From an uncultured Roseicyclus sp. (lineage in GTDB: Bacteria > Pseudomonadota > Alphaproteobacteria > Rhodobacterales > Rhodobacteraceae), in contig CANLLF010000001.1 in NCBI GenBank assembly GCA_947491935.1, forward strand, positions 434,001 to 498,000: a stretch of DNA of 64,000 nt, written 5' to 3'. Every line of letters starts with the position of its first letter. Within the stretch, counting starts at the first letter, position 1. The position numbers and the translations under genes are program-made. Shown here piece after piece: positions 39,852 through 57,300 of this stretch. Below the pieces are notes generated by a model, which was not told the origin of the DNA, did no database searches, and saw only the letters and a program-made list of their open reading frames with translations.

Positions 39852-39854
39852 ACC

Positions 39855-41810: not shown

Positions 41811-41818
41811 GAGAACAA

Positions 41819-43171
41819 ATGAATCGTTTGCGCTCCCACCTGATTGCTTTGCTGACAGCGCTTCTCGCGTCAGTCGCCGCGCCCGCGACGGCCGAGCGGG
41901 TCGATGTGCCGGCAGAGCCGGGGGCGCTGACCACAGCCATCGGCGGGGCATCCCCCGGCGATGCGCTGATCCTTGCACCGGGCCGCCATGATGGCCCGGT
42001 GACCATCGACCGCCCCCTGACGCTGGAGGGTGGCGGGGCCGCGACGATTGCGGGCAACGAGATCGGATCCGTCGTCACCGTTGCTGCAACCGATGTCACA
42101 ATACGCGGCATTGAGATCGTAGGGTCCGGCTCAAACGGCACCGATGCGGATGCGGGCATCGAGCTGGATCGCGGTGCGGACCGCGCGCTGATCGAGGACA
42201 ATCGCCTGATCGGCAACCTTGTCGGCATCCACCTCTTCGGCAGCAGCGACAGCCTCGTGCGCGACAATGAGATCATCGGCCGCCGCGATCCGCGCGTGAA
42301 CGATCGCGGCAACGGCATCTATGTCTGGAACTCCCCCGGCTCCGTGATCGAAGACAATGATATCCGATATGGCCGCGACGGCATCTTCGTGAACACCTCG
42401 CGCCAGAACATCTTCCGCGGCAACATGATGCGTGATCTGCGCTTTGCCGTGCATTTCATGTATGCCCCCGACAGCGAGGTCATCGGGAACATCTCCATTG
42501 GGAACACGCTTGGCTTTGCCATCATGTTCTCGGACCGGATCGACGTGATCGACAACATGTCACTCGCCGACCGGACCCATGGGGTGATGCTCAACTTCGC
42601 CAATGGCGGCGAGGTGCGCGGCAATCTGGTGCGCGGCGGCACCCATGAGAAATGCACCTTCATCTACAATTCGCACCGCAACATCATCCACGGAAACCGC
42701 TTTGAAGGGTGCGAGATCGGGATCCATTTCACCGCTGGATCCGAGCGCAACGCGATCTTCGACAACGCCTTCGTTGGTAATCAGACCCAAGTCAAATATG
42801 TCGGCTCGCGCGATGTGGAATGGAGCTATGAGGGCCGTGGCAATTACTGGTCGGATCATGTGGCCTTCGACCTGAACCGCGACGGCGTGGCCGACAGCGT
42901 GTTCCGACCCAACGATCTGATGGATCACATCTTGTGGTCACAACCCTCCGCGCGGCTTCTGATGGGCTCCCCCGCGGTGCAGCTGATCCGCCATGCCCAG
43001 GCCGATTTCCCGGCAACACTGCCGGGCGGTGTGCTCGACAGCACGCCCCGCATATACCCCGTGGACATCACGGTGCCCCCCGCCCTCGCCCGGCTTGAGG
43101 CCGATGCCCTAGCCCACTTTCACAACGGATCCGGTATCAATGACGACCCTGACCCTCTCGAACGTCACTAA
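41819..43171 (+). CDS. nosD: NosD, periplasmic copper-site maturation protein
   Basis: A 450-residue protein with a signal peptide (ALLASVAAPATA) and a right-handed beta-helix made of NosD/CASH repeats, seen as the recurring DNEIIGR, NDIRYGRDGI, GNMMRDLRF, NRFEGCEIGI units. It works with NosFY in building the CuZ cluster. The start at 41819 (MNRLRSH) lies 8 nt after nosZ. Its last 32 nt overlap nosF in another frame, so the two are translationally coupled. Confidence 0.95.
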   Translation: MNRLRSHLIALLTALLASVAAPATAERVDVPAEPGALTTAIGGASPGDALILAPGRHDGPVTIDRPLTLEGGGAATIAGNEIGSVVTVAATDVTIRGIEIVGSGSNGTDADAGIELDRGADRALIEDNRLIGNLVGIHLFGSSDSLVRDNEIIGRRDPRVNDRGNGIYVWNSPGSVIEDNDIRYGRDGIFVNTSRQNIFRGNMMRDLRFAVHFMYAPDSEVIGNISIGNTLGFAIMFSDRIDVIDNMSLADRTHGVMLNFANGGEVRGNLVRGGTHEKCTFIYNSHRNIIHGNRFEGCEIGIHFTAGSERNAIFDNAFVGNQTQVKYVGSRDVEWSYEGRGNYWSDHVAFDLNRDGVADSVFRPNDLMDHILWSQPSARLLMGSPAVQLIRHAQADFPATLPGGVLDSTPRIYPVDITVPPALARLEADALAHFHNGSGINDDPDPLERH

Positions 43172-44045
43172 GACCTTCGGTGATATGCGCGCCCTGGACG
43201 CCGTGGGGTTCACGGTGGCTGCCGGTGAGCGTGTGGCGCTGATCGGGCACAATGGCGCGGGGAAATCGACGCTGATGAAGATCCTACTGGGTCTGATCCC
43301 GGCCACGGCGGGCGATATCGAGGTGTGTGGCGCCGCACCGGGATCTGACGCGGCGCGGCAGCACGTGGCCTATCTTCCGGAAAACGCGGCGTTTCACTCG
43401 GCCCTGACCGGGTTGGAAACGCTGCGGATGTATCTGCGCCTGCGCGGGGAGCGCCCGGATCAGGCGATGTCACTTCTGGACCGTGTTGGCCTTGCGGATG
43501 CTGCAAAGCGGCGCATTAGCACCTATTCCAAGGGCATGCGCCAACGGGTGGGTCTCGCGCAGGCGTTGATCGGTCATCCGCGTCTTCTGGTGCTGGACGA
43601 GCCAACCTCTGGCCTTGATCCGGTGTCGCGGCGGGACTTCTACACCATGCTGGATAAGTTGGCCGCGGAGGGCGCAGCGATATTGTTGTCCAGCCATGCC
43701 CTGACCGAAGTCGAGGCGCGCACCGACCGCATCGTCATCCTGTCCCGCGGGAAACTGGTGGCAGACGATACGCTGGCTGGCCTGCGCCGCCGCGCCGCGT
43801 TGCCCATCCGACTGCAGATCCGGGCCCGGCCCGGTGAGGCCGATGCGGTCGCTGCGGAACTGGCGGGGGGGCGGCAGAACGGAGTCATGGTTGATCTGAC
43901 ATGCACGCCCGAGGACAAACTCCTGCGCCTTGGCCAGATCGCCGGGCTCGGCCCGCTGGTCGAAGACGTCGATGTGGTCCCGCCAAGCCTTGAGGACATC
44001 TACAGCCATTTCAGCCAGGTGGGTGCGGAAGGAGATCGGCCATGA
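43140..44045 (+). CDS. nosF: NosF, ABC ATPase for NosZ maturation
   Basis: A 301-residue ABC ATPase: Walker A GHNGAGKSTLM, signature TYSKGMRQRVGLAQALIG, Walker B LLVLDEPTSGLDPVS, then a C-terminal extension. The signature Ser-Lys-Gly-Met variant is common in this exporter type. It starts inside the nosD 3' end and overlaps nosY by ATGA. Confidence 0.95.
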   Translation: MTTLTLSNVTKTFGDMRALDAVGFTVAAGERVALIGHNGAGKSTLMKILLGLIPATAGDIEVCGAAPGSDAARQHVAYLPENAAFHSALTGLETLRMYLRLRGERPDQAMSLLDRVGLADAAKRRISTYSKGMRQRVGLAQALIGHPRLLVLDEPTSGLDPVSRRDFYTMLDKLAAEGAAILLSSHALTEVEARTDRIVILSRGKLVADDTLAGLRRRAALPIRLQIRARPGEADAVAAELAGGRQNGVMVDLTCTPEDKLLRLGQIAGLGPLVEDVDVVPPSLEDIYSHFSQVGAEGDRP

Positions 44046-44863
44046 CACGCATTCTCGCCACCGCAAGCGCCGAAGCCCGGATCGTGCTTCGCAATCGCTG
44101 GGTCGCAATCGCCATCGCGATGATGGCGGTGTTTTCATTGGTCCTGTCTGCCACCGGATCGGCCCCAACCGGTGCGCTTGGAGCAGACCCTTTGTCAGTC
44201 ATCATCGCAAGCCTGACCAGTCTCGCCGTCTACCTCGTGCCGCTGATTGCGCTACTGATGAGCTTCGATGCCATCGCAGGCGAGGTAGAGCGCGGAACGC
44301 TGCCGCTTGTTCTGACCTATCCGATCCGGCGATCCGAAATCCTGCTTGGCAAGTTCGCGGCGCATCTGGCGGCCCTCGCGCTGGCCGTTGCGGTGGGCTA
44401 CGGGCTGGCGGCAGGCGCGGCTTTCCTGTCGGATACCGGATCCGCTGCTGGCCTTCCCGCCCTCCTGCGGCTGTTCTGGACGTCACTCCTGTTGGGCGGG
44501 GCGTTTCTTGCCATCGGCTACGCCCTGTCGGCGCTGGCCCGAAGGCCGGGTGCGGCGGCAGGCCTCATCATCGGGCTGTGGTTGGTGATGATCGTCCTTT
44601 ACGACCTCAGCCTTCTGGCCGCGATTGTTGCCGATGATGGCGGGTGGTTCACCACCGACATCTTCCCCTGGCTCCTGATCGCCAATCCGGCAGACGCTTT
44701 CCGCCTCTACAATCTGGCCGCGTCCGAGGCGACGGCCGCCGCCGCAGGCCTAGGCGGGGCCGCCGCCACCATCGCACCGCTTCACGCGCTGGCCTCACTT
44801 CTACTGTGGCCTTTGGGCGCCCTCGCCCTCGCTGTTTTCGCCTTTCGAAAGGTAACGCCATGA
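44042..44863 (+). CDS. nosY: NosY, membrane permease for NosZ maturation
   Basis: A 273-residue ABC-2-type permease with six membrane segments and the motif GEVERGTLPLVLTYPIRRSEILLGKF after the second segment. It forms the membrane part of NosDFY. Overlaps nosF and nosL by ATGA on both sides. Confidence 0.94.
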   Translation: MTRILATASAEARIVLRNRWVAIAIAMMAVFSLVLSATGSAPTGALGADPLSVIIASLTSLAVYLVPLIALLMSFDAIAGEVERGTLPLVLTYPIRRSEILLGKFAAHLAALALAVAVGYGLAAGAAFLSDTGSAAGLPALLRLFWTSLLLGGAFLAIGYALSALARRPGAAAGLIIGLWLVMIVLYDLSLLAAIVADDGGWFTTDIFPWLLIANPADAFRLYNLAASEATAAAAGLGGAAATIAPLHALASLLLWPLGALALAVFAFRKVTP

Positions 44864-45429
44864 CACTCCGTCTGTCTTTGCTGGCGCTCTCAATGCTCGC
44901 TCTCGCGGCGTGTCGCGACGAGGTGGCCGACCTGCCCGACCCGGCAGCCATGACATCCGAGGCTGTGGGGCATTATTGCCAAATGGGCATCCTAGAGCAC
45001 AGCGGCCCCAAGGCGCAGGCCTATCTTGAGGGTCTGCCTGCACCCCTGTTCTTCAGTCAAGTGCGCGACGTTGTGGCTTACATGCGGATGCCCGAACAAT
45101 CCCACATCGTCACCGTGGCCTATGTCTCGGATATGGGGCAACCCGGCGCGACATGGGACGCGCCCGGGACCGAGAACTGGATCAACGCGGCTGCGGCCCA
45201 TTTCGTCGTCGGCGCCGAGGTGACGGGCGGTATGGGCACCCCGGAACTCGTCCCATTCTCAAGCCGCGAGGCGGCGGAGGCCTTTGCCAATCTGAATGGA
45301 GGTGACGTCATGGGCTTGGATGACATTCCCGACAGTGCCGTTCTTGCACCGATAGATGGCGACGACATCTCCGCGGACGAAGATTTCCTGCGCCGACTTG
45401 AGGCACTGACACCCGATGAGGAGAGTTGA
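44860..45429 (+). CDS. nosL: NosL, copper-binding lipoprotein
   Basis: A 189-residue lipoprotein with lipobox LALAAC (Cys 18). The Cu(I) chaperone motif YCQMGILEHSGPKAQAYL and the Met/His-rich VVAYMRMPEQSHIV are typical of NosL. It passes copper to the NosDFY-NosZ assembly line in the periplasm. Starts within the nosY stop (ATGA). Confidence 0.95.
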   Translation: MTLRLSLLALSMLALAACRDEVADLPDPAAMTSEAVGHYCQMGILEHSGPKAQAYLEGLPAPLFFSQVRDVVAYMRMPEQSHIVTVAYVSDMGQPGATWDAPGTENWINAAAAHFVVGAEVTGGMGTPELVPFSSREAAEAFANLNGGDVMGLDDIPDSAVLAPIDGDDISADEDFLRRLEALTPDEES

Positions 45430-45432
45430 TCC

Positions 45433-46368
45433 ATGCATCGCCGCCGCTTCCTGACCATCACGGCAGGCGCCGCCTGCGCCGGTTTGATCCCCGCGGGCCC
45501 TGCATCCTCGTTGACCCGCTGGCAGGGTGTGGCGCTGGGGGCCGAGGCGTCAATCACGCTTGATCATCCCGAAGCGGACCGCCTGATCGCCGCGGCGCGG
45601 GCCGAAATCGACCGGCTGGAGAACATCTTCAGCCTCTATCGCGCATCATCTGCGCTGTCGCGGCTCAATACGGCTGGCTCCCTATCGGCACCGCCCTTTG
45701 AGCTTTTGGAGTGTCTGTCGCTGGCGGCCCGCGTCCATGCGACGACGAGCGGGGCCTTTGACCCCACGATCCAGCCGCTCTGGGCGCTTTATGCCGAACA
45801 CGCCGCGGGTGGGGGCACGGATTTGCCACCGATTGCCGCGCGGGCCCAAGTGCTTGAGCGGGTCGGTTGGCCCGCTGTCCATCTCGATGCGGCCGAAATT
45901 CGCCTTGGTCCTGGGGCGGCGCTCAGCCTTAATGGCATCGCCCAGGGCTATATCGCCGACCGAATTGTCGCCCTTTTTCGCGCAGAAAGCCTGTCCGATG
46001 TGCTGGTGGATGCGGGAGAACTGCGCGCCATCGGGGGCGACCCGCGAGGCGGACCCTGGCGGGTTCAGCTACGCGGCGATGCCGACCCGGCTGGCAGACC
46101 CGTCGATCTCGCCGACGCCGCCCTTGCCACCTCAGCACCGCTTGGAACCGTCTTCGATGCCGCAGGCAGCATCGGCCACATTCTGGACCCACGGAACGGC
46201 CTGCCCGCGCCGAACCGGTGGCGCCTGGTTTCGGTGAGCGCTCCCCAGGCCGCTTTGGCAGACGCGCTTAGCACCGCTTTCACTTTGCTCACCCAGCCAG
46301 ATATCGAGTTGGCCTTGACCCATTGGCCATCCGTTCAGATCGCCCGCCTCATTCCGAACGACGGATAA
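45433..46368 (+). CDS. nosX: NosX, ApbE-type FAD:protein FMN transferase
   Basis: A 311-residue ApbE-family protein with an exported N-terminus (MHRRRFLTITAGAACAGLIPAG, Tat-like with RRRF). Motifs: IFSLYRASSALSRLN, TSGAFDPTIQPLW, ALSLNGIAQGYIADRIV, and DVLVDAGELRAIGG with the Mg2+/FAD-binding Asp. It attaches FMN to the SGATVT threonine of NosR. Three nt after nosL; end of the nos cluster. Confidence 0.94.
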   Translation: MHRRRFLTITAGAACAGLIPAGPASSLTRWQGVALGAEASITLDHPEADRLIAAARAEIDRLENIFSLYRASSALSRLNTAGSLSAPPFELLECLSLAARVHATTSGAFDPTIQPLWALYAEHAAGGGTDLPPIAARAQVLERVGWPAVHLDAAEIRLGPGAALSLNGIAQGYIADRIVALFRAESLSDVLVDAGELRAIGGDPRGGPWRVQLRGDADPAGRPVDLADAALATSAPLGTVFDAAGSIGHILDPRNGLPAPNRWRLVSVSAPQAALADALSTAFTLLTQPDIELALTHWPSVQIARLIPNDG

Positions 46369-47159
46369 GATCTACCCGCACGCCCATCGGGGATACCAGC
46401 ATCCCTCGATCATGGGGGCCGGTCCGTCCGGATGAACTCGCCTATAAAGCTGAACGCGCCGGCAGCGGATCCATTCGACCCGAGAGGTCTGCTACGTGCG
46501 ACAATCTCGTACCCGGATTGCGAGCTGATCGAGACCGTCTCGCGCGGCTCGACATCACGATACCGACGCGGGACGCGGCGGCGGAGATGGTAGAGACGGC
46601 CCCGTTTCGCGATGCTTATGTCGAACAAGTCAAGCGGACCAAAAAACCGCCGGAGGCGCGAAGGCGTCAGATTATGCTCTACTATCAGCGCGCTATGAGC
46701 CATAAGCCTTAAAGAAGTGGCGGCGCAGTTGTCCGAACACACGTCGAAATGCCCGGCGTAAGGAATTGAACTTAGAGGCCTTTCTTTCTCGGCTGCTACC
46801 AATTTGTGCAGCAAAACATTTAGCAAACTATGGCAAGAAAGTTGCTTCTGGTCTGGGGATGCGCAGCCCACGGTCCCGCGAAGCCGCTTCCGCTCTCAAA
46901 CCTGTAACCATTTACGATGTCTGAAATAGATGGCAGACACCGGCTTTGCTTCTATTCGCCGCCACGCAGTAACTGAGCCGAGGTCCCACAGCTGCTACTC
47001 TCTGAGTTGGTCTAGCTGCGCCGCTGTTTCTCCAGCTCGAACATCCGTTTGGCTCGTTGCAATTTGAGACCGCCAAGAACCGCTTGGCGGGACAAGAAGG
47101 ACTTTCGTCGATCCCGTTCCAATCTCCGCGATGCGATGCACACCGGCCCATTGTGCTTC
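46369..47159. other. gene-poor, likely degraded region after nosX
   Basis: About 790 nt with no gene I can support. A plus-strand frame ending at 46712 has protein-like text in its last 90 codons (RLARLDITIPTRDAAAEM, PPEARRRQIMLYYQRAMSHK) but no credible start; it could be the tail of a decayed gene. From 46730 to 47100 GC falls below the neighbours and stops are frequent in all frames. No transposase or tRNA seen. Confidence 0.45.
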
Positions 47160-47633
47160 CTAGTCAACGGCAAGATTGTCGCTTTGAATATCCAACAGAA
47201 CCCTGGCTTCCTCGATCATCCTGCGCGCCACCTGAAAACTGTGATCCAGCGCCCCGTCATTTGCGGGGATTGGCGGGCAGACCACCCGTGCGATGCCGCT
47301 TTGGATGACGGCACGGGCACAATCGGCGCAGGGGAAGCGGTTGACATAGAGCGTGCATCCCTGAAGCGACACACCGGTGCGTGCAGCGTTGTAGATCGCG
47401 TTGCGCTCGGCATGTTCGCCCCAGAAAAACTTCTCTCCGCTGGCCCGATCAAATCGTGCCTCATCCGCGTCCGAAACCCCGCGCGGCAAGCCATTGTATC
47501 CGGTCGCCCGGACCTCTTGCCCCTCGGGCCCCACAATTACGCAGCCGACATGCCGGTCGCGATCCTCCGACCAGGAAGCGACGTGATCGCAGAGCCCCAG
47601 AAACCGTTTCGTCCAGATCGCGGAATCAGCCAT
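47160..47633 (-). CDS. dCMP deaminase-family zinc deaminase
   Basis: A 157-residue cytidine/deoxycytidylate deaminase fold. Zinc site: His and catalytic Glu in WGEHAERNAIYNAA (about H74, E76) and Cys pair in PCADCARAVI (about C102, C105). The central insertion SDADEARFDRASGEKFF is like ComEB/dCMP deaminases. The ATG is only 3 nt after the upstream dehydrogenase stop, so it belongs to the catabolic operon. It may deaminate an aminopyrimidine-like intermediate rather than dCMP; this is inference from context. Confidence 0.88.
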   Translation of the reverse strand: MADSAIWTKRFLGLCDHVASWSEDRDRHVGCVIVGPEGQEVRATGYNGLPRGVSDADEARFDRASGEKFFWGEHAERNAIYNAARTGVSLQGCTLYVNRFPCADCARAVIQSGIARVVCPPIPANDGALDHSFQVARRMIEEARVLLDIQSDNLAVD

Positions 47634-47636
47634 GGG

Positions 47637-49085
47637 TCACCCGGAAAAGACGTAGGATGTCTTGACGCTGGTGTAGAATTCCGCTGCGAAACTGCCCTGT
47701 TCGCGGGGACCGAAGCTTGATCCTTTGCGGCCGCCGAAGGGCACGTGATAATCCACGCCGGCCGTTGGAAGGTTAACCATGATCATCCCCGCATCGGCGC
47801 GACGGCGGTAGTCACGCGCGTATTTGAGGCTGCTGGTGCAGATGCCTGATGAGAGCCCGTAATCCGTGTCGTTGGCGACGGCCACGGCCTCCTCAAAATC
47901 GTCGACCTTGATGATGGACGCGGTGGGGCCGAAAATTTCCTCGCGGTTGATCCGCATGTCGTTGGTTGTGCCAAGGAACAGCGCCGGTGCCTGATAGAAC
48001 CCTGGCGTGGCAAGCTCCAGCCGCTCGCCGCCGATCACCTCGGCCACCTCGGTCTTGGCCAACGCCACGTAGTCGAGATTCGACAGCAATTGCTTTTCAT
48101 CGACAACCGGGCCGATTTGTGTGGCCGGATCAAGGGGGTCGCCGACCGTCAGCGCCGTCATTTGCGCCGACAATTTCTCGACAAAGGCATCATGGATACC
48201 GGATTGTACGATCAGCCGTGACGAGGCGGTGCAGCGTTGCCCGGTTGAGAAGAACGCCCCATTGAGACACGCGCCAACGGCGGTGTCGAGGTCGGCGTCA
48301 TCCATCACAACCATCGGGTTCTTGCCGCCCATCTCGATCTGGACCTTCTTGCGCAGGCGCCCGCAGGTCTCCGCCAGACGGTTGCCGACCGCAGATGAGC
48401 CGGTGAAAGAAATCGCCGCCACATCGGGATGATTCACAAGCGCCTCACCCACGACAGACCCGCGTCCGTAGATCAGGTTGAAGACGCCGGGCGGGCAGCC
48501 GCCCTCTTGCAGGGCTTCGGCGATGATCATGGCGCAGGCGGGCGTCAGGTCAGCGGGCTTCAGGACCACGGCGTTGCCAAAGGCCAAGGCTGGCGCGGTT
48601 TTCCACGCGGGGATGGCAATAGGGAAGTTCCAGGGCGTGATCAGGCCGATGACCCCCAGAGGCTCACGAACGACCTCGATATCGATGTCGGGCCGCACGG
48701 ATGGGTGCAATTCCCCCCCAAGGCGCAACGCTTCGCCTGAGAAGAATTTGAACACCTGGGAGGCACGGCCAACTTCGCCCATAGCTTCGGGCAGGGTCTT
48801 GCCCTCTTCGCGGGCGAGGATGCGGCCGTATTCCTCGGCATTGGCGCCCAGTTTGTTGCCGACAAAGGCCAGCACATCGTGGCGCGCCTGCGGTGTGGCG
48901 GCGGCCCAACCGGGTTGAGCGCGTTTCGCGGTTGCCACGGCTTCGTTGACCGCTTCGGCATCACCATAGGAGAATTCGCCCACCACATCGTTGGTATCGG
49001 CAGGGTTGATATCGGGTTGGAAATTGCCAAAATCGGCCCATTTCCCGTCAATCAGCGACATATGTTTTGTCATCGGAAGTCCCAT
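47637..49085 (-). CDS. aldehyde dehydrogenase, 2-oxoglutarate semialdehyde dehydrogenase-like
   Basis: A 482-residue aldehyde dehydrogenase with PWNFPIAIPAWK near 151, FTGSSAVGNRLAE near 227, the Glu base in IEMGGKNP (about E251) and the nucleophile in FFSTGQRCTASSR (about C285). The neighbouring DapA-family gene makes 2-oxoglutarate semialdehyde a likely substrate, as in sugar-acid and hydroxyproline pathways. The ATG at 49085 overlaps the DapA stop as TAATG; MTKHMSLIDGKW, 4 codons later (49073), is an alternative start. Confidence 0.93.
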   Translation of the reverse strand: MGLPMTKHMSLIDGKWADFGNFQPDINPADTNDVVGEFSYGDAEAVNEAVATAKRAQPGWAAATPQARHDVLAFVGNKLGANAEEYGRILAREEGKTLPEAMGEVGRASQVFKFFSGEALRLGGELHPSVRPDIDIEVVREPLGVIGLITPWNFPIAIPAWKTAPALAFGNAVVLKPADLTPACAMIIAEALQEGGCPPGVFNLIYGRGSVVGEALVNHPDVAAISFTGSSAVGNRLAETCGRLRKKVQIEMGGKNPMVVMDDADLDTAVGACLNGAFFSTGQRCTASSRLIVQSGIHDAFVEKLSAQMTALTVGDPLDPATQIGPVVDEKQLLSNLDYVALAKTEVAEVIGGERLELATPGFYQAPALFLGTTNDMRINREEIFGPTASIIKVDDFEEAVAVANDTDYGLSSGICTSSLKYARDYRRRADAGMIMVNLPTAGVDYHVPFGGRKGSSFGPREQGSFAAEFYTSVKTSYVFSG

Positions 49086-49945
49086 TATTGGTGGCCATTC
49101 AGGGCCTGTTCAAGATCGGCTGCGGCCTCGGGGCTCAAGGGTTGAAAGGGCGGCAGGGTCTGGCGCCAGGCGGCATCACCCGTGCGGGCGGAGACGAGAT
49201 GTTTGACACCGGGGATCAGGGTCGGCCCAGCGATTGCCGTGCGTTGTCGCGCAATTTCGGTCTCGGGGGCGGTGTCCCCGGCCCAGACCTGCGCACAGAG
49301 CGGTGCGGTGACATTCACGGTGGCCGAGATACAGCCCGCGAACCCGTCGGCCCTGGCATGGGCAAGTGCGGTCTCGGAGCTGGGAAAGACGCGCAAGCGA
49401 CGGTCCAGCGCGACGATCTCGCGGCAATAGTCGAGATCGCCGGAACTGTCCTTGATGCCCGTGAACCGCGCGGGGGCCTGCATGGCCAGGTTCTCGATCA
49501 CGGAGACCGGGATCACCAGCCCCGTCATCTGCGGGAAATTATAGAAATAAATCTGAATCGCACAGTCGCTCAGCGCCGCGTGAAGCGCCATGTACCAGGA
49601 GACCAAACCGGCCTCCGATACGGGCTTGTAGTAGTAAGGCGGCAGCACCAGTGCCACGCGATATCCCAAAGCGTCCGCAGCGCGGGTCAGGGCGATGGTT
49701 TCGGCCAACGACGGCGTACCGGTCCCGACCATGAGCTGCTCTTTCGGGCAGACCTCCGCCGCCCATCCCATGACCTCGATCCGGCTGGCCGTGTCGAACG
49801 AATTGGCCTCGCCGGTCGATCCCAGGATGTTGAGCCCGTCACAGCCATGGGCCAACGCCCAGGCGCAATGTTCCTGAAACAGGGCCCTCATCGGCGCGCC
49901 ATGCGCCGTCACGGGTGTGGGCACCGCCGCAATTACACCTTGCAT
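49085..49945 (-). CDS. DapA-family (dihydrodipicolinate synthase-like) lyase
   Basis: A 286-residue class I aldolase-fold protein. Motifs: GLNILGSTGEANSF near 38-50 (the GTGE/GSTGE pyruvate-binding loop), catalytic Tyr in YFYNFPQ (about Y135) and Schiff-base Lys in FTGIKDSSGD (about K165). Family members include N-acetylneuraminate lyase, KDG aldolase, 2-keto-3-deoxyarabonate dehydratase and pyrroline-4-hydroxy-2-carboxylate deaminase. Pairing with a semialdehyde dehydrogenase favours the last two reaction types. Its 5' end overlaps fdxA by 13 nt. Confidence 0.9.
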   Translation of the reverse strand: MQGVIAAVPTPVTAHGAPMRALFQEHCAWALAHGCDGLNILGSTGEANSFDTASRIEVMGWAAEVCPKEQLMVGTGTPSLAETIALTRAADALGYRVALVLPPYYYKPVSEAGLVSWYMALHAALSDCAIQIYFYNFPQMTGLVIPVSVIENLAMQAPARFTGIKDSSGDLDYCREIVALDRRLRVFPSSETALAHARADGFAGCISATVNVTAPLCAQVWAGDTAPETEIARQRTAIAGPTLIPGVKHLVSARTGDAAWRQTLPPFQPLSPEAAADLEQALNGHQ

Positions 49946-50292
49946 TCACTTGCTTCCTTTTCCTGCGCTTCGGGCCGCAATGTGGCGAGGTTCGGTGCAT
50001 CTTTCACCGGCTCCATGCCTTTGACCCAACCGCCCGGCTCTTCGATCTCATCCGCGGCGTTGCGAAAAACCGTTGTGTTCATCTCCGCGAAGGGTTCTTC
50101 GCCCTCGGGCACCTCATCATCGTAGCGGATCGCATCCACGGGACAGATCGATTCACACATCCCGCATTCGATGCATTCGGTCGGATGGATGTAGTACATC
50201 CGCTCGCCTTCATAGATGCAGTCGACTGGGCAAGACGTTGTGCAAACCCCGTCCTTCACGTCGACGCATGCGCTGAGGATGACAAGCGGCAT
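49933..50292 (-). CDS. fdxA: 7Fe ferredoxin, FdxA type
   Basis: A 119-residue ferredoxin with one [3Fe-4S] and one [4Fe-4S] site: CVDVKDGVCTTSCPVDC and CIECGMCESICPVDAI, then the acidic C-terminal extension (EVPEGEEPFAEMNTTVFRN) usual for alphaproteobacterial FdxA. Electron carrier in the cytosol. Being inside this operon, 3 nt after the enoyl-CoA hydratase gene, suggests it serves a redox enzyme of the pathway, possibly the FAD oxidoreductase. The tail past residue 95 is slightly longer than usual. Confidence 0.93.
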   Translation of the reverse strand: MPLVILSACVDVKDGVCTTSCPVDCIYEGERMYYIHPTECIECGMCESICPVDAIRYDDEVPEGEEPFAEMNTTVFRNAADEIEEPGGWVKGMEPVKDAPNLATLRPEAQEKEASECKV

Positions 50293-50295
50293 GGG

Positions 50296-51069
50296 TTATT
50301 TCCCTTGCCAGACCGGCGCGCGCTTTTCGCGAAAGGCCTGCACGCCTTCATCTGCATCGACGGACCCAAGCGCCGCAACTAGGTCGTTGGTGCCCGCAGC
50401 GTAGGCGGCATGGGGATCGAGATGCGCGGTTTGACGCGCCACGGATTTGATCGCACGGAGTGACAACGGGGCACTGGCCAGAATATCGCCGACCCAACGC
50501 GCCACCTCGGCATCCAGATCGGCCACCGGCACCACGGCATTCACAATGCCATAGCGCGCCATGTCAGCGGCCGGGATCATGCGCCCGGTCATCATCATCC
50601 CCATGGCGATGTTGCGCGGGATCAGGCGAGGTAGCATCACCATGCCGCCGTCAAGCGGCACACGCCCCACCTTGGCCTCTGGCAACGCAAAACGCGCGGT
50701 GTCCACCGCGATAACAATGTCGCATCCCATGACCATCTCGAACCCACCGCCAAGCGCCAGGCCATTGACCCGCGCAATGACTGGTTTGGACATGGATTTC
50801 AGAGAGATGCCCCGAAAGCCGCTTTCGCTGAGCTGCCGCCAGTATTCAACACCCGTCAAGCCGCTGTCGTCCTTCAGGTCCGCCCCGGCCGAAAAAGCCT
50901 TGTCGCCCGTCCCGGTCAGGACGGCGCAGCGGATTTGCGGATCGGCCTCAACCGTGTCCCAGATTTCCGCCAGCTGTGCGTGGCTGGCCGCGTCAATCGC
51001 ATTCATGCGGTCGGGACGGTCGATGGTGATATAGGCCACGTGGTCCGTGACCTCGAAAATCACGCTCAT
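50296..51069 (-). CDS. enoyl-CoA hydratase/isomerase (crotonase family)
   Basis: A 257-residue crotonase-fold protein. Visible: the CoA-binding AFSAGADLKDDSGLTG near 58-72 and the oxyanion-hole region VNGLALGGGFEMVMGCDIVIA near 104-124, PEAKVGRVPLDGGMVMLPRL. Acts on a CoA thioester made by the CoA-transferase next door. Overlaps that gene by ATGA. Confidence 0.92.
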   Translation of the reverse strand: MSVIFEVTDHVAYITIDRPDRMNAIDAASHAQLAEIWDTVEADPQIRCAVLTGTGDKAFSAGADLKDDSGLTGVEYWRQLSESGFRGISLKSMSKPVIARVNGLALGGGFEMVMGCDIVIAVDTARFALPEAKVGRVPLDGGMVMLPRLIPRNIAMGMMMTGRMIPAADMARYGIVNAVVPVADLDAEVARWVGDILASAPLSLRAIKSVARQTAHLDPHAAYAAGTNDLVAALGSVDADEGVQAFREKRAPVWQGK

Positions 51070-52232
51070 TCAGCGGCCTCTGTCTTCAGCATCTGGGCGA
51101 GTTCCTGCAACACGTCTTCGGTATGCTCGCCCAAACGCGGCGGCAGATGGCGCACCGTCAGGGGGGCCTCGGACAGATGGACAGGGCTGCCGACCACAGT
51201 GATCTTGCCCAGAACCGGATGGTCGATGGGGCAAAGCATGCCGTTCACGTCGGTTTGCGGGTCATCCAATGCCTCGCCCAACGCGCGCACCGGGGCGCAG
51301 AGCAGGTCGACCGCCTCAAGCCGTTGCAGCCAATAGGCGCTGGTGTTACCCGCGATCACGTCCCGGAAAGTCTTTTGCAGGACGGGTTTGTTCGCCCGCT
51401 GCTCAGCCAGTGTCGGATAGGTCGGCGAAAGATCATCGATCTCAAGCGCCGTGCAGATATCCTGCAAGGGGTTCGCCTTGAACGCGCCGACGATCACAAT
51501 GGCGCCGTCGGTTGTGTCAAACACGCCGGTCAACGGCATCGCGGCCCAATTCAGCACCTCCCGGTGCTTGGACCATTGCGCGGCTTCCTGCATCTGCATC
51601 GCGATCATGCTGTCGTAGAGCGACACGGCAACCTTTTGGCCCCTGCCCGTCTTTTCCCGCATCAGGAGGGCCGCCATGATCCCCTGCACCAGGTGCATGC
51701 CCGCAGAATAGTCACAAAGCGTGGTGGGGTAGATCGATTTGGGGATCGAGGGATCCTGGGTCTTTTCCATCACCCCGGTCATGGCCTGCGCCAGAACGTC
51801 CTGCCCGCCTTTGTGGGCGTAGGGACCGGTGGGGCCGAAGCCCGTGCCACTGGCGCTGATGATGCGCGGGTTCAGTTTGGACAAGGTGTCATAGCCAAGG
51901 CCCAGACGATCCATCACACCGGCGCGAAAATTGTCGACCACGACATCAGCAGTGCGGACGAGGTCCAGAACGGCCTGCCGCCCCTCATCCGATTTCGTAT
52001 CCAATGTGACCGAGCGCTTGTTGCGGTTGAGCGAAACGAAAACAGCATTGTTCATCGCCTCTTCGCTGCGCTCGCCATAGAAGGACCGGCTCAGATCGCC
52101 CGCGCCCGGGCGTTCGATCTTCATCACATCTGCGCCGAAATCGCCCAACATCTGCGTGCAACACGGCCCCAGCATGACTTGGGTAAAGTCGATCACACGG
52201 ACACCGCTGAGCGGCATAATAGTTTCTGACAT
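51066..52232 (-). CDS. CoA-transferase family III (CaiB/BaiF type)
   Basis: A 388-residue family III CoA-transferase. N-terminal VRVIDFTQVMLGPCCTQMLGDFGADVMKIE and DVVVDNFRAGVMDRLGLGYDTL are diagnostic; the catalytic Asp is in TLCDYSAGMHLVQG. It moves CoA from a donor thioester to an organic acid, activating the pathway substrate. 15 nt downstream of the FAD oxidoreductase gene. Confidence 0.94.
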   Translation of the reverse strand: MSETIMPLSGVRVIDFTQVMLGPCCTQMLGDFGADVMKIERPGAGDLSRSFYGERSEEAMNNAVFVSLNRNKRSVTLDTKSDEGRQAVLDLVRTADVVVDNFRAGVMDRLGLGYDTLSKLNPRIISASGTGFGPTGPYAHKGGQDVLAQAMTGVMEKTQDPSIPKSIYPTTLCDYSAGMHLVQGIMAALLMREKTGRGQKVAVSLYDSMIAMQMQEAAQWSKHREVLNWAAMPLTGVFDTTDGAIVIVGAFKANPLQDICTALEIDDLSPTYPTLAEQRANKPVLQKTFRDVIAGNTSAYWLQRLEAVDLLCAPVRALGEALDDPQTDVNGMLCPIDHPVLGKITVVGSPVHLSEAPLTVRHLPPRLGEHTEDVLQELAQMLKTEAAE

Positions 52233-52247
52233 AAGACCTGCCTCTTT

Positions 52248-53600
52248 CTATTCTGCGGCCACCGGCTCGATCAGGGCGTTGGGCGACGGCTGATCCCCCG
52301 GATCGGCGCCTTGGGCGCGCATTTGCTTTTGAATGGCCGTGAAGTCGACATCCCGCAGGGCCACATTGCCCTCCAGCGCGAGTTTTGCAGCGACACCCGC
52401 CGCCTCGCCCTGCGCCATGCAGGGGGGGATTTCGCGGCTGAGCTTTTGAGCATCGCTTTCGACCGAATAGTGCCGCCCGGCGACGATCAGATTGTCGATG
52501 CCCTTGGGCAGGAGCGCGCGGTACGGCGTGTAGTAATCGCGCCCCCGGCAGACCGTATCCTGGAAATGGCGGCGCGACTTCACGTCGTCTTTGGTGACAA
52601 CATATTCGCCCTGGAGCAGCCGTGTCTGACGGATGCCCATCTGCTCGGCCGCCCCGAGCATCTGCGCGTCTTCGAAGCCGGGCATATTCTCTTTCACGAA
52701 GTGATAGAGCTTCATCATCCGCTCGCGCCCCTCGACCTCCGAGGTGACCATGCCTTCGACCGAAATCCCGTCATAGCCCGGCATGTGGGGGCAATTGCAC
52801 CAGACCACACCGTCGATCGGAGTCTTCAACCACCACATGCCCCAGGCCCCGCCAATCCGGCGGCGCGCCTCACGATCCAGCTTTTTGTACTCCTCGGGAT
52901 GGGCAAATTCGTAGTCGATGGCTTTCTGCGTATCGACATTGGCCAGGCGAAAGACCGTTGTAACGATGAATTGGCCGTCGATGTATTCGGCCCCCGCCGC
53001 CGCGCCGACATCGAGATCACCCGTGGCATCCACAACGTATTTCGCGCGGATCACCTGCCGGCCCTGTTTGGTCTGTGCGATCACGCCTGTGATCCGGCCG
53101 CCTTCGCGTATGACGTCCGAGAACCAGCTATGAGTGCGCAGGTTCACCTTGCTTTCGACCACCATATCCAGCGCCACACGTTTCCAGGCGTCGGGATCAA
53201 AGGCCACGGCGTGGATGATGGGTTGCGGCATGCCGGTCTGGTGAAAATCGATGCAGCCCCAGCGCGACCATTTCTTCCACATCTCCCAATTGGTCAGACA
53301 ATCCTCGGACGGCGGAAACACCGCCGCGTCCTGCTTGGAGAGCCGGTCGACAAATTCATCAACGATACCGGTTGTGACAACTTCGTTGCCCTCGTTGACC
53401 ATGTCGTCGAGCACGAGAACCATACCGCCGGACGCCATGCCGCCGAGATGATGATACCGCTCTAACAAAGTCACTGAGGCCCCGTTGCGCGCCGCCGAAA
53501 CGGCCGCGGCCTGCCCCGCGGGCCCGGCGCCGACCACGACGATGTCGCAATCGGAAATCACGGGCAGCTGCGCTCCTTCCACGTCTACAAAGGTCGTCAT
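52248..53600 (-). CDS. FAD-dependent oxidoreductase
   Basis: A 450-residue flavoprotein with the dinucleotide-binding motif CDIVVVGAGPAGQAAAVSAA at about 19-38, followed by LLERYHHLGGMASGG, a second FAD motif AKYVVDATGDLDVGAAAGAE near 200, and a C-terminal DNLIVAGRHYSVESDA. It resembles the FAD_oxidored (PF12831-like) group, which acts on diverse organic substrates. The start at 53600 (MTTFVDVE) has GGGAGG 7 nt upstream. Substrate unknown. Located between the ABC importer and the CoA-transferase. Confidence 0.9.
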   Translation of the reverse strand: MTTFVDVEGAQLPVISDCDIVVVGAGPAGQAAAVSAARNGASVTLLERYHHLGGMASGGMVLVLDDMVNEGNEVVTTGIVDEFVDRLSKQDAAVFPPSEDCLTNWEMWKKWSRWGCIDFHQTGMPQPIIHAVAFDPDAWKRVALDMVVESKVNLRTHSWFSDVIREGGRITGVIAQTKQGRQVIRAKYVVDATGDLDVGAAAGAEYIDGQFIVTTVFRLANVDTQKAIDYEFAHPEEYKKLDREARRRIGGAWGMWWLKTPIDGVVWCNCPHMPGYDGISVEGMVTSEVEGRERMMKLYHFVKENMPGFEDAQMLGAAEQMGIRQTRLLQGEYVVTKDDVKSRRHFQDTVCRGRDYYTPYRALLPKGIDNLIVAGRHYSVESDAQKLSREIPPCMAQGEAAGVAAKLALEGNVALRDVDFTAIQKQMRAQGADPGDQPSPNALIEPVAAE

Positions 53601-53624
53601 GTACAATCCTCCCAAAGGGCGCGC

Positions 53625-54422
53625 CTACCAGCGCACCACGAGTTTTTCAGTGATCGTCACCAACGAAAACAGCAGCACCGATAGCCCGGAGGACATGAAG
53701 ACGGTGGCGTAGAGCATGGGTGAACGGAAGTTGAACGTGCTATCGATGATCAATGCGCCAAGGCCCACGTTTGCCCCGATCCATTCCGAGACAATTGCGC
53801 CGATCACGCAGGTGGTCGCGGCGATCTTGAGGGCCGAGAACAGGAACGGCATGGAGCTTGGGAGGCGCATCTTCCAGAAGATTTCGGATTTGGAGGCCGA
53901 CAGGATGCGCGCCAGTTCCAGGGTTTGCGGACTGACCGATTGCAAACCGCGCACCATGTTGACCAGGGTCGGGAAAAAGCAGATCAGCCCCGCGATTACC
54001 ACCTTCGACGTCATGCCCGGCCCGAAGATCAAGACCAGGATCGGCGCGATGGCGAGGATCGGAATAGTGTTGATAAAGACCGCAATGGGGAAGAACGCGC
54101 GCTCTGCCGCCCGCGAATGGACGAATGTCACGGCAATCAGGATGGCTGCAAGGTTGCCCGCGAAAAAGCCTGCGACGCTGATTGTGAAGGTTGGCCAGAA
54201 ATTCGTGGCCAAGATATCGAACCGGTCACGAAACACCGCCAGAACGTCGGTCGGCGCGGGAGCGATGTATGTCGGCACTTCAAAGAAACGTACCCCGAAT
54301 TGCCAGATCAACAGGAGCGTGATCGCGGTCCCGATTGGCACCGCCGCATTGGTGAGGCGCTGGCCAAGCTGCGATGGGGGCTTTTCCTCGGCGGCTTCGG
54401 GCAAGAGTTCGGTCACAGCCAT
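53625..54422 (-). CDS. ABC transporter permease (SsuC/TauC type)
   Basis: A 265-residue permease with six membrane segments and the EAA loop ELARILSASKSEIFWKMRLPSSMPFLFSALKIA. The start at 54422 ([10 protein letters not shown]) overlaps the ATPase stop as TGATG, with GGAGG 7 nt before it. Partner of the ATPase and NMT1-like receptor upstream. Confidence 0.92.
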   Translation of the reverse strand: MAVTELLPEAAEEKPPSQLGQRLTNAAVPIGTAITLLLIWQFGVRFFEVPTYIAPAPTDVLAVFRDRFDILATNFWPTFTISVAGFFAGNLAAILIAVTFVHSRAAERAFFPIAVFINTIPILAIAPILVLIFGPGMTSKVVIAGLICFFPTLVNMVRGLQSVSPQTLELARILSASKSEIFWKMRLPSSMPFLFSALKIAATTCVIGAIVSEWIGANVGLGALIIDSTFNFRSPMLYATVFMSSGLSVLLFSLVTITEKLVVRW

Positions 54423-55210
54423 CAGCAATCCTCCAGGGATTTGCGCAGGTAAGACGAATATTCGTTGAACTCCGCCGTCTCGCGCAGGTCGACCGCACGC
54501 GGTTCAGGCAGGTTAATATCGACGACCTCTTTCACCCGGCCGGGATGGGCGCGCAGCATCAGGACCTTTTGGCCCAAAAGCACAGCCTCAGGGATCGAGT
54601 GCGTCACGAACAGGCAGGTCACGCCGGTTTCGCGCCAGATTTCGAGCAATTGCATGTTGAGCCGGTCGCGCGTCATTTCATCCAGCGCACCGAAAGGCTC
54701 ATCCATCAACAGGAGCTTTGGCTGACAAACCAGGGCACGCGCGATGGCCACACGCTGTCGCATGCCGCCCGAAAGCTCATGCGGCAAGGCATTTTCGCGC
54801 CCTTTCAGACCCACCAATTCCAGCAATTCCATCGGGGTGCGGTCGCCCTGCGGGATCGGGATGCCGCGTTTGCGCCCCATCTCCAGCGGCAATTCCACGT
54901 TCTTCAGGGCCGTGCGCCACGGCAACAGCGTTGCATCCTGAAAAACAAAGGCGAATTCGCGGGCAAGACGGGCGGCCTCGGTGGATTTTCCCAAAATCTC
55001 AACCGTACCGTCAGCGGGCGGCAACAGGTCCGAGACCAACCGCAGCATGGTGGATTTACCACAGCCCGAGGGGCCAAGGATGGTCCAGAACTGTCCCTCC
55101 CCGATTTCCAACGAGATGTTGGACAAAGCGGTGAAGCTGCCGAACTTGACCGAGGCTCCGGTCAGAGTGGCCGCGATGCTGCGGCCACCCGTATTTGTTG
55201 TCCCGTCCAT
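54422..55210 (-). CDS. ABC transporter ATP-binding protein (SsuB/TauB type)
   Basis: A 262-residue ATPase: Walker [15 protein letters not shown], signature [16 protein letters not shown], Walker [17 protein letters not shown]. The ATG at 55210 lies 3 nt after the receptor stop; GTG at 55213 is an alternative. Nitrate/sulfonate/pyrimidine-type importer family. Confidence 0.92.
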
Positions 55211-55213
55211 CAC

Positions 55214-56248
55214 TCAGCCGAACGTCGGGCGGACATCCGCCGTTGCATTGAGGATATCGAGGGTCATAACATCGTTAGTCGTCGGAACATCGCCCTCGAA
55301 CTGATTGAGGTTTGCGTAGGCGTCGATCTGAGCCTGCCAGTTTTCTTCGGTCATCACACCCCAGCCACCGGCAGCGGTGCGCTCGTTAAACGAGAAGCCC
55401 AACACCAGGGGGGAAGCCGCCATTTCGGCGTCACGTTCGAGGTTTGGATAGCGCGCAACCAGCGCGTCCACTGCGCCTTCAGGATTTTCATAGGCCGCAC
55501 CCCACCCGCGTGAGATCGCGCGAATGGCCGCTGTGACCTTGTCGCCATGTTCCTGCAACACGTCATCCGTGGTGTAATATGGGTTGGCGTAGAGCTGAAT
55601 TCCGGCATCCCACAGGGACATATCGACCCTTTGGTCGCCCAAGACGGCCAAGGCCCCGGTGTTGGTTGACCAACCCGTCACCACGTCGACCTGGCCATTC
55701 ATCAATGCGGCCATGTCGGCGCCCATCACGGCCACTTCGACATCTTCTTCGGCGATGCCGTTGTGGGCCAGCATGGCCTGCAGCAGGATCCGCGCCGTGC
55801 CTTGCGTGGCGACGGTTTTTCCGATCAGGTCCTGCGGTTCGCGCACCGGATTGCCGGTCAGCGAGAAGTAGGTGAATGGATGGCGCTGATACCCCGCTGC
55901 GATGCAGCGGATCGGCAGGCCCGCCGAGCGTGCGAGCATCAAAGACGGCGACGACGAGATCGAGCCGAAGTTATTTGCGCCCGAGGCCACTGAGGCCACG
56001 CCGTCCACGTTCGGACCGCCCGGAACTATTTCCAGCGCCAAACCTTCTTCGGCGAAGTAGCCCAGGCTGTCGGCCATGACTTCGCCGGTGATGCCGTTCG
56101 AGGCCAACCAACCAAGTTGCATGCGGATTGTGTACTCGTGCCCATCGGCGTGCGACGGCACGACTGACACAAATGTCCCCGAAGCAGCAACGCCGGCGAC
56201 GGCGGCACTGCTTTGTAAAAACGACCTGCGATTTAGATCTTTCGTCAT
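55214..56248 (-). CDS. ABC transporter substrate-binding protein (NMT1/THI5-like)
   Basis: A 344-residue periplasmic receptor. The N-terminus MTKDLNRRSFLQSSAAVAGVA has a Tat-like NRRSF motif. The mature part starts YTIRMQLGWLASNGITGEVM, followed by SLGYFAEEGLALEIVPGGPN and GANNFGSISSSPSLMLAR, the NMT1/THI5 layout of the taurine/pyrimidine-precursor receptors. The start at 56248 is preferred over one 56 codons upstream that would overlap the divergent lysR. Relatives bind aminomethylpyrimidines, sulfonates or aromatic acids; the deaminase at the operon end makes a pyrimidine worth testing. Confidence 0.9.
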   Translation of the reverse strand: MTKDLNRRSFLQSSAAVAGVAASGTFVSVVPSHADGHEYTIRMQLGWLASNGITGEVMADSLGYFAEEGLALEIVPGGPNVDGVASVASGANNFGSISSSPSLMLARSAGLPIRCIAAGYQRHPFTYFSLTGNPVREPQDLIGKTVATQGTARILLQAMLAHNGIAEEDVEVAVMGADMAALMNGQVDVVTGWSTNTGALAVLGDQRVDMSLWDAGIQLYANPYYTTDDVLQEHGDKVTAAIRAISRGWGAAYENPEGAVDALVARYPNLERDAEMAASPLVLGFSFNERTAAGGWGVMTEENWQAQIDAYANLNQFEGDVPTTNDVMTLDILNATADVRPTFG

Positions 56249-56356
56249 GTCTTCTGGCTCCCTGAAAAATGCGGTTATTGGCCTTTTGGAAAACGGTAGA
56301 CGTTCAGTGGGCGCTGCACGTAGAGTTATTTGGCGCCTCCTGTGCTGCAAATACTG

Positions 56357-56370
56357 CATCGCTATCGATG
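56357..56370. promoter_or_regulatory. candidate LysR site CATCG-CTAT-CGATG
   Basis: A perfect 5-4-5 inverted repeat 25 nt upstream of lysR and about 110 nt upstream of the divergent receptor gene. LysR regulators bind dyads in the shared divergent region. Tentative. Confidence 0.35.
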
Positions 56371-56394: not shown

Positions 56395-57300
56395 ATGCAC
56401 GATAAGTTCCTGACATATTTCGACGAAACCGCCCGACAGGGTTCGATCCGCAAGGCGGCGGCGGTGTTGAACATGTCGTCCTCCTCGCTCAACCGAAAAA
56501 TCATCAGCACAGAAAATCGGCTGGGTGTTCGCTTTTTTGATCGGCATGCGGATGGAGTGGAGCTGACCGCTGCCGGGGCGGTGGTGCTGGAACACTGCCG
56601 GAACACCCTGATGGATTACCAGCGAATCCTCGGGGCGGTCAGTGACATCCGGGATATGCGCACAGGCCATGTCGACATCGCGACGCTGGATTCCGTGGCT
56701 CTGACGATCCTGCCGGACGCTCTGAAGCAGTTCAACGCCGACTACCCGGAGATCACTTATACCATACAGACGGCGCAGCCCGATGAGGTCATGCAGATGG
56801 TCGCCGATGGCGACGCCGATATCGGATTGTCGTTCAGCAACGATCTACACCCGAGCGTGCGCAGCCAGGCCGAGAAATCGACACCCATCGGCGCAATCAT
56901 GGAGCCCGGCCATCCACTGGCGGAACGCGATGTTATCGAGCCCCACGATCTGGGCAACTACCAGATGATCCGATCCTATGATGCCTTCGCGCACCGCTCG
57001 ATCGTCAATGACGTGATGACCGAGCTTGGCCTGAGCCTGCCGACCCAGATCTTCACGAATTCGCTTCCCCTCGCCAAATCCATGATCACTGGCAGCAATT
57101 CGGTGGGCCTTTATTCGAAGATTGGCTTTTTGAGAGAGATCGAAACTAATTCCCTTCGCTACCTGCCCGTCAATTCTCCTATCCTCAAGGAACTGCGGAT
57201 CGGAGTTCTGATATCATCGCGCAGCTCCTTGCCCCCCGTCCAACACGGGCTGAGCCGCCGATTGGCAAAGGCTCTTCGCGGGCTGCGGCTCGATTCCTGA
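56395..57300 (+). CDS. LysR-family transcriptional regulator
   Basis: A 301-residue LysR protein. The HTH is at about 5-60 (FLTYFDETARQGSIRKAAAVLNMSS, NRLGVRFFDRHADGVELTAAG), then the effector-binding domain (VDIATLDSVALTILPDALKQFN). Divergent by 146 nt from the ten-gene catabolic operon and probably its activator. Confidence 0.92.
   Translation: MHDKFLTYFDETARQGSIRKAAAVLNMSSSSLNRKIISTENRLGVRFFDRHADGVELTAAGAVVLEHCRNTLMDYQRILGAVSDIRDMRTGHVDIATLDSVALTILPDALKQFNADYPEITYTIQTAQPDEVMQMVADGDADIGLSFSNDLHPSVRSQAEKSTPIGAIMEPGHPLAERDVIEPHDLGNYQMIRSYDAFAHRSIVNDVMTELGLSLPTQIFTNSLPLAKSMITGSNSVGLYSKIGFLREIETNSLRYLPVNSPILKELRIGVLISSRSSLPPVQHGLSRRLAKALRGLRLDS

Follow-up and report, generated by a model that had tools for sequence, protein, structure and literature searches.

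What does a bacterium do with an operon that joins an importer of the NMT1/THI5 type to coenzyme A (CoA) chemistry, a ferredoxin and a zinc deaminase? The question is raised by a 64,000-nucleotide (nt) stretch of DNA from an uncultured Roseicyclus sp. (genome of 4.65 Mb in 14 contigs), here called the window, in which ten co-directional genes lie on the minus strand from position 56248 to position 47160. All ten open reading frames (ORFs) are free of internal stops, and with the starts used the successive gaps are 0, -7, +24, +15, -4, +3, -13, -1 and +3 nt, bearing out the tight packing (-13 to +24 nt) reported in a preliminary description of the locus. The gene families named there were confirmed as well, each protein scoring above the curated Pfam cut-off: NMT1, ABC_tran, BPD_transp_1, FAD_oxidored, CoA_transf_3, ECH_1, Fer4, DHDPS, Aldedh and dCMP_cyt_deam_1. 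Among the matches listed (the best 25 each for proteins 2, 4, 6, 7 and 9) none of the ten reached an NCBIfam cut-off, so that exact functional names, for example of the ferredoxin and the dehydrogenase, are not secured. Full-text searches, with most subscription journals outside their coverage, found no described pathway with this gene combination, in agreement with the earlier statement that none was known; searches for the homologous operon of R. johnstonii 3841 by guessed locus tags also returned no literature. The locus is a conserved, modular catabolic-type operon of known enzyme families for which no description was found. A role in uptake and catabolism is assigned with high confidence. 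The more specific reading that we prefer, and hold tentatively, is that a small N-heterocyclic compound is taken up and catabolised via CoA thioesters under the control of a LysR-type regulator.

When 84,980 species genomes were scanned with the operon's flavoprotein, 76 loci emerged. The operon was carried by five of 41 near relatives, 16 of 385 genomes drawn from the class and two of 398 drawn from the phylum, the source genome being included each time; it is conserved but sporadic. The preliminary description had proposed searching other genomes for the same gene set, and homologues were indeed found in the same order across dozens of genomes, indicating that the arrangement goes beyond chance. 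Comparisons covered 106 loci (L004-L077, L085-L097, L115-L129 and L130-L133, the distant loci L078 and L079 being left out), of which 103 have the flavoprotein at threshold, in 89 cases flanked by 5 kb or more in both directions; because loci were picked by flavoprotein or CoA-transferase similarity and many are related, counts among them are not independent. Within the 89 well-flanked loci, to which the fractions below refer, the CoA-transferase and crotonase were always present, and the ferredoxin and the receptor were each found in 86; the three loci lacking the receptor (L086, L097 and L132) are actinobacterial and have a major facilitator superfamily transporter. The core thus consists of flavoprotein, CoA-transferase, crotonase, ferredoxin and importer, and the remainder are optional modules: the deaminase occurs at 65 loci, the DapA-type gene at 57 and the aldehyde dehydrogenase at 46, with none of the three detected at 9/89 loci at the thresholds used. 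The ten genes therefore do not form one indivisible set. Assigning each locus to its better-scoring flavoprotein reference separated a marine branch (window reference, 67 loci) from a rhizobial-soil branch (Rhizobium reference, 22 loci). Copies of the operon were also seen in metagenome-assembled genomes labelled Kiritimatiellae and Solirubrobacteraceae (L008 and L051), with flavoproteins 75-83% identical to the marine alphaproteobacterial one; these are possibly binning errors.

Evidence of shared regulation comes from the upstream side of the operon, where a divergent LysR-type regulator gene (56395..57300, plus strand; PF03466 LysR_substrate and PF00126 HTH_1), overlooked in the preliminary description, faces the operon across a 146-nt gap. 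In 71 related loci whose intergenic region is usable, a LysR gene adjoins that of the receptor. Alignment of 19 such regions revealed a candidate operator, GATGCA-N5-TGCAGC, of the T-N11-A form typical of LysR regulators, with an exact match in the window (56344..56360, minus strand). With up to two mismatches, the pattern GATGCA-N5-TGCANC was found in 64 of the 71 intergenic regions, mostly at a similar position, and in 1.6% of shuffles. A version with a 4-base spacer performed no better than chance, the 5-base spacer being the one that gives the exact site in the window. With their regulation shared and their packing tight, the ten genes are very likely co-transcribed. Across the source genome the close operator pattern matched five sites, including the operon's own, against four for a control pattern, and the ORFs around the other four offered no lead by eye. 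Six relatives gave 28 matches against four for the control, partly since palindromic sites count twice; no lead to a wider regulon emerged from the five loci inspected (one of them the operon's own) of 20 fetched (L153-L172). Counts of promoter-like sites (6 versus 3.3 in shuffles, standard deviation 1.7) and terminator-like sites (9 versus 9.9) were uninformative.

If the operon serves uptake, its importer may hold information about the substrate. The importer comprises a receptor (55214..56248; PF09084), an ATPase (54422..55213; PF00005) and a permease (53625..54428; PF00528), all on the minus strand like the other operon genes below. A Tat-like signal in the receptor (PF10518) scored 21.7, below the Pfam cut-off of 22.7. 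A profile built from eleven receptors found 4nmy (3e-27), 3ix1 (4e-25), THI5 (5e-12) and taurine receptors (8e-11) as nearest solved chains. The predicted structure (mean predicted local distance difference test score, pLDDT, 82.6) matched first 3ix1, the formylaminopyrimidine receptor ThiY, and thiamin-bound 4nmy, then chains of the hydroxymethylpyrimidine (HMP) synthase THI5, mixed with TauA from rank 7. Two Trp residues do not vary in the receptor family: Trp47, which aligns with the DW motif of ThiY, and Trp193, which aligns with a Trp of 4nmy. The receptor falls in the branch of NMT1 that contains ThiY and THI5 and in which the solved members bind the pyrimidine of thiamin; from sequence and model, such a pyrimidine would be a candidate ligand, as yet unproven. 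Compared with the ThiXYZ-type pyrimidine importer, the operon shares the receptor fold, the closest solved receptor sequences and the general ABC importer type, but differs in carrying CoA-dependent catabolic genes, in having no riboswitch match in the window and in not keeping a pocket residue of ThiY.

The deaminases point in the same general direction. The zinc deaminase of the window (47160..47633; PF00383) has its HAE and PCxxC motifs intact, and these residues (H74-A75-E76, P101-C102 and C105) are more than 95% conserved in 56 sequences; its relatives, the dCMP deaminases, have a 4-aminopyrimidine as substrate. At homologous loci the dCMP-type enzyme (52/89) alternates with an unrelated aminohydrolase (13/89) of the COG0402 kind, and no locus has both. 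The dCMP type is found at 50/67 marine-branch and 2/22 rhizobial-soil loci (L085 and L129), the aminohydrolase at 13/22 rhizobial-soil and 0/67 marine-branch loci; L122 encodes a further aminohydrolase of 26% identity, below the threshold used. The best models for two rhizobial aminohydrolases were the 8-oxoguanine deaminase and an ammeline-type enzyme, far below the cut-offs. Catabolism of pterins or folate was considered with aminohydrolase-family pterin deaminases in mind; no solved structure is closely related to the rhizobial aminohydrolase (best E 7e-21), and the idea was neither supported nor excluded. Among the 385 class genomes, an operon-type deaminase (E below 1e-70) was found in two, both operon-bearing, the next match being at 6e-53. 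Looser relatives (E up to 1e-20) occur in 34/385. The relatedness of the receptor and the two alternating deaminase families favour an aminated N-heterocycle as substrate.

Some neighbouring genes are of pyrimidine or purine metabolism. Next to the homologous operon of Rhizobium ACO-34A, and divergent from it, lie rut pyrimidine genes and an NADP aldehyde dehydrogenase gene (L090 938-6712), suggesting a possible substrate class, although the ten genes include neither a RutA oxygenase nor the dihydropyrimidine dehydrogenase of the reductive pathway. A dihydropyrimidinase adjoins the aminohydrolase at L122, and at L054 a guanine deaminase lies downstream, past ORFs read by eye as xanthine-dehydrogenase-like; similar first ORFs are present in L059, L060, L062 and L063.

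Several observations weigh against an N-heterocyclic substrate. TauA appears within the top ten fold matches of the receptor, and the ligand can therefore not be read from the fold; Glu190, a pyrimidine contact of ThiY, is not kept in the receptor alignment. Five of the 13 aminohydrolases are just 27-33% identical to the rhizobial one and may therefore differ in function, and so few genes of pyrimidine or purine metabolism lie nearby that chance could account for them. Only two of the 16 operon-bearing class-draw genomes (own included) have an operon-type deaminase. Among the well-flanked marine-branch loci, 17 have no deaminase; for 14 of these the whole genome was searched, and a dCMP-type gene was found in none, both added positive-control genomes being recovered. 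A close rhizobial-type aminohydrolase was also found in 0/14 of these genomes, in a search without a positive control of its own; the two control genomes likewise had no match (0/16 in all). The absence of the dCMP type from entire operon-bearing genomes indicates that deamination provides no more than a side entry, or else depends on an unrelated enzyme. The earlier suggestion of an aminopyrimidine-like substrate accordingly stands as regards the receptor relatives and the alternating deaminases, and is weakened where the dCMP-type deaminase is missing genome-wide in 14 genomes that bear the operon.

The most specific form of the N-heterocycle reading is degradation of the thiamin pyrimidine itself: HMP would be deaminated, its hydroxymethyl group oxidised by the dehydrogenase (together with a short-chain dehydrogenase/reductase, SDR, in some genomes) and the resulting C5 carboxylate converted to a CoA ester; the crotonase would then add water at C6 and so open the ring. 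The closest solved relatives of the receptor and the kinship of the deaminase with enzymes of 4-aminopyrimidines are consistent with this, as are the SDR genes at 5/89 loci, and C5=C6 would lie alpha,beta to a C5 thioester, where crotonases normally act. However, the DapA-type enzyme would have no role, the flavoprotein step would be unexplained and the deaminase is often absent. At the Rfam gathering score no RNA family was matched in the window, the TPP (thiamin pyrophosphate) riboswitch included, and no thiamin gene was noticed at the loci read, in which no search was aimed at one. The literature found on thiamin degradation, in the parts available to us, described no pathway of this kind. 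In so specific a form the proposal is unlikely. The same THI5-like receptor could instead serve salvage or biosynthesis of thiamin or nucleotide precursors, and the four looser deaminase relatives inspected (47-52% identical) all stand alone, none of them near operon genes. Salvage or biosynthesis would leave CoA-transferase, crotonase, ferredoxin and dehydrogenase without an evident place, the missing riboswitch match speaks against it too, and both LysR control and sporadic distribution fit catabolism; we regard it as very improbable. Homarine catabolism was considered as well and dropped, though not excluded, after the literature gave no lead.

The core genes encode a flavin adenine dinucleotide (FAD)-dependent oxidoreductase (52248..53600; PF12831, also examined by alignment, structure model and fold matches), a family III CoA-transferase (51066..52232; PF02515), a crotonase of the enoyl-CoA hydratase family (50296..51069; PF00378) and an FdxA-like ferredoxin (49933..50292; PF00037; below NCBIfam cut-offs, with 116.8 against 125 for FdxA_Actino). 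The best solved relatives of the CoA-transferase resemble succinate-hydroxymethylglutarate and formyl-CoA transferases. The flavoprotein model (mean pLDDT 78.7) gave 1354 fold matches with E up to 0.001, those listed having template modelling scores (TM-scores) of at most ~0.5. The best match listed was geranylgeranyl-reductase-like 3oz2 (TM-score 0.44, 16% identity), and FixC of Fix/EtfABCX was seventh. With TM-scores this low, matches of this common FAD fold do not tell a reductase from a dehydrogenase or a monooxygenase. Members of the geranylgeranyl reductase and FixC families can work with ferredoxin. In the part of the Methanosarcina acetivorans literature available to us, a geranylgeranyl reductase and a ferredoxin are named together; the likeness to the archaeal enzyme lies in the family of the best fold match listed, whereas that match is distant and a different substrate class is expected. 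On a Dehalococcoidales contig (L078 682-7316) two ORFs that look like flavoprotein relatives stand in tandem, a distant relative there being 43% identical in the alignment, and by eye the neighbours include ORFs for a ferredoxin-like protein and aldehyde:ferredoxin oxidoreductase, a possible redox cluster. Taken together, the fold families, the L078 context and the ferredoxin gene at 86/89 loci indicate that the flavoprotein is likely coupled to ferredoxin.

Such a combination recalls carnitine reduction (cai/fix), which also uses a family III CoA-transferase, a crotonase and a flavoprotein with ferredoxin. In a rival reading the substrate would be a non-aromatic, carnitine-like or sugar-acid-like acid, whose degradation would combine CoA activation, hydration or dehydration and flavin redox and lead to a 2-keto-3-deoxy acid, and from there through 2-oxoglutarate semialdehyde to 2-oxoglutarate, with the deaminase an accessory for an aminated analogue. 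The nine loci without any optional module agree with this, as do relatives of the DapA-type and dehydrogenase genes described below. It is opposed by the aminopyrimidine-binding relatives of the receptor and by the two unrelated heterocycle-type deaminase families at 65/89 loci, and we consider it possible but on balance unlikely. In contrast to the carnitine system, the ten genes include no electron-transfer flavoprotein subunits or acyl-CoA dehydrogenase, the importer is of another kind, and the operon has deaminase and DapA-type modules.

The DapA-family lyase or dehydratase (49085..49945; PF00701) and the aldehyde dehydrogenase (47637..49085; PF00171) suggest where the route may end. The former scored 107.3 against TIGR00674 (DapA), whose cut-off is 206.15; its subfamily occurs at 52/89 loci and a second one at five. 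The second subfamily (L090) has as its first solved relative a protein titled dihydrodipicolinate synthase and as its next ones L-2-keto-3-deoxyarabonate dehydratases. Dehydrogenases are likewise of two types, the window's (38/89) and a second (8/89), 27-32% identical to each other. For the dehydrogenases encoded in the window, in Ensifer and in Rhodococcus, the nearest models are 2-oxoglutarate-semialdehyde dehydrogenases, the window protein scoring 498.6 of the 770 set for NF042993 and 493.3 of the 750 set for NF052305, thus below the cut-offs. For one protein of the second type, 3v4c and 1eyy are close matches; their group contains hydroxyproline-linked 2-oxoglutarate-semialdehyde dehydrogenases. 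At 41/89 loci a DapA-type gene coexists with a dehydrogenase gene, against ~29 expected under independence, which favours consecutive steps. The 2-oxoglutarate end product put forward in the preliminary description remains plausible, given this co-occurrence and the swapping of the dehydrogenase for a second type that is typical of 2-oxoglutarate-semialdehyde enzymes. Hydroxyproline, glucarate and L-arabinose routes to 2-oxoglutarate share a DapA-type enzyme and a semialdehyde dehydrogenase as their final two steps; in contrast to the operon they have no CoA chemistry, ferredoxin or deaminase, and here the two enzymes are optional. In Ensifer adhaerens, genes for an SDR, an RraA-like protein (PRK08245 family) and the second DapA subfamily stand beside the homologous core (L089 2569-5009).

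Returning to the N-heterocycle reading, the route that we infer, in its substrate, order of steps and product, would run as follows. The ABC importer would bring in an aminated N-heterocycle, most likely of the aminopyrimidine type, with the pyrimidine part of thiamin as lead candidate. The zinc deaminase, of dCMP-deaminase or aminohydrolase type, would convert a ring amino group to an oxo group as a side entry. The CoA-transferase may then activate a carboxylate of the substrate, and the flavoprotein with its dedicated ferredoxin may reduce or oxidise the C-C bond beside the thioester. Hydration by the crotonase would prepare ring opening, and the DapA-type enzyme and aldehyde dehydrogenase would take an oxo acid via an aldehyde, perhaps 2-oxoglutarate semialdehyde, to central metabolism. 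Degradation of such N-heterocycles is known mainly via oxygenase or reductase routes. A bolder version, which we judge decidedly unlikely, is an aerobic counterpart of reductive N-heterocycle dearomatisation, in which the ferredoxin-fed PF12831 flavoprotein would reduce a CoA-activated pyrimidine-type ring and the crotonase would hydrate and open it, with no oxygenase or benzoyl-CoA-reductase-type enzyme. Were the N-heterocycle reading correct, many marine and soil bacteria would have a CoA-based route for a class of N-heterocycles. Marine microbes exchange vitamin B1 pyrimidines, so a consumer of this pool would be of ecological importance. The alternating deaminases offer a direct way of testing the substrate, and in the flavoprotein and its ferredoxin new enzymology has a defined target.

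Finally, the surroundings of the operon were considered. Its GC content does not set it apart. On its other side, a nos cluster for nitrous oxide reduction occupies the plus strand (37608-46368; NosR-like, NosZ, NosD, ABC genes and ApbE); the nos genes and apbE are not part of the operon. Directly downstream of the last operon gene lies a short ORF (46410-46871, minus strand) without a Pfam family, which by eye resembles the start of an integrase-like ORF pair ~21 kb past the operon in the same genome (L149 202-1466); an integrase remnant may flank the operon.

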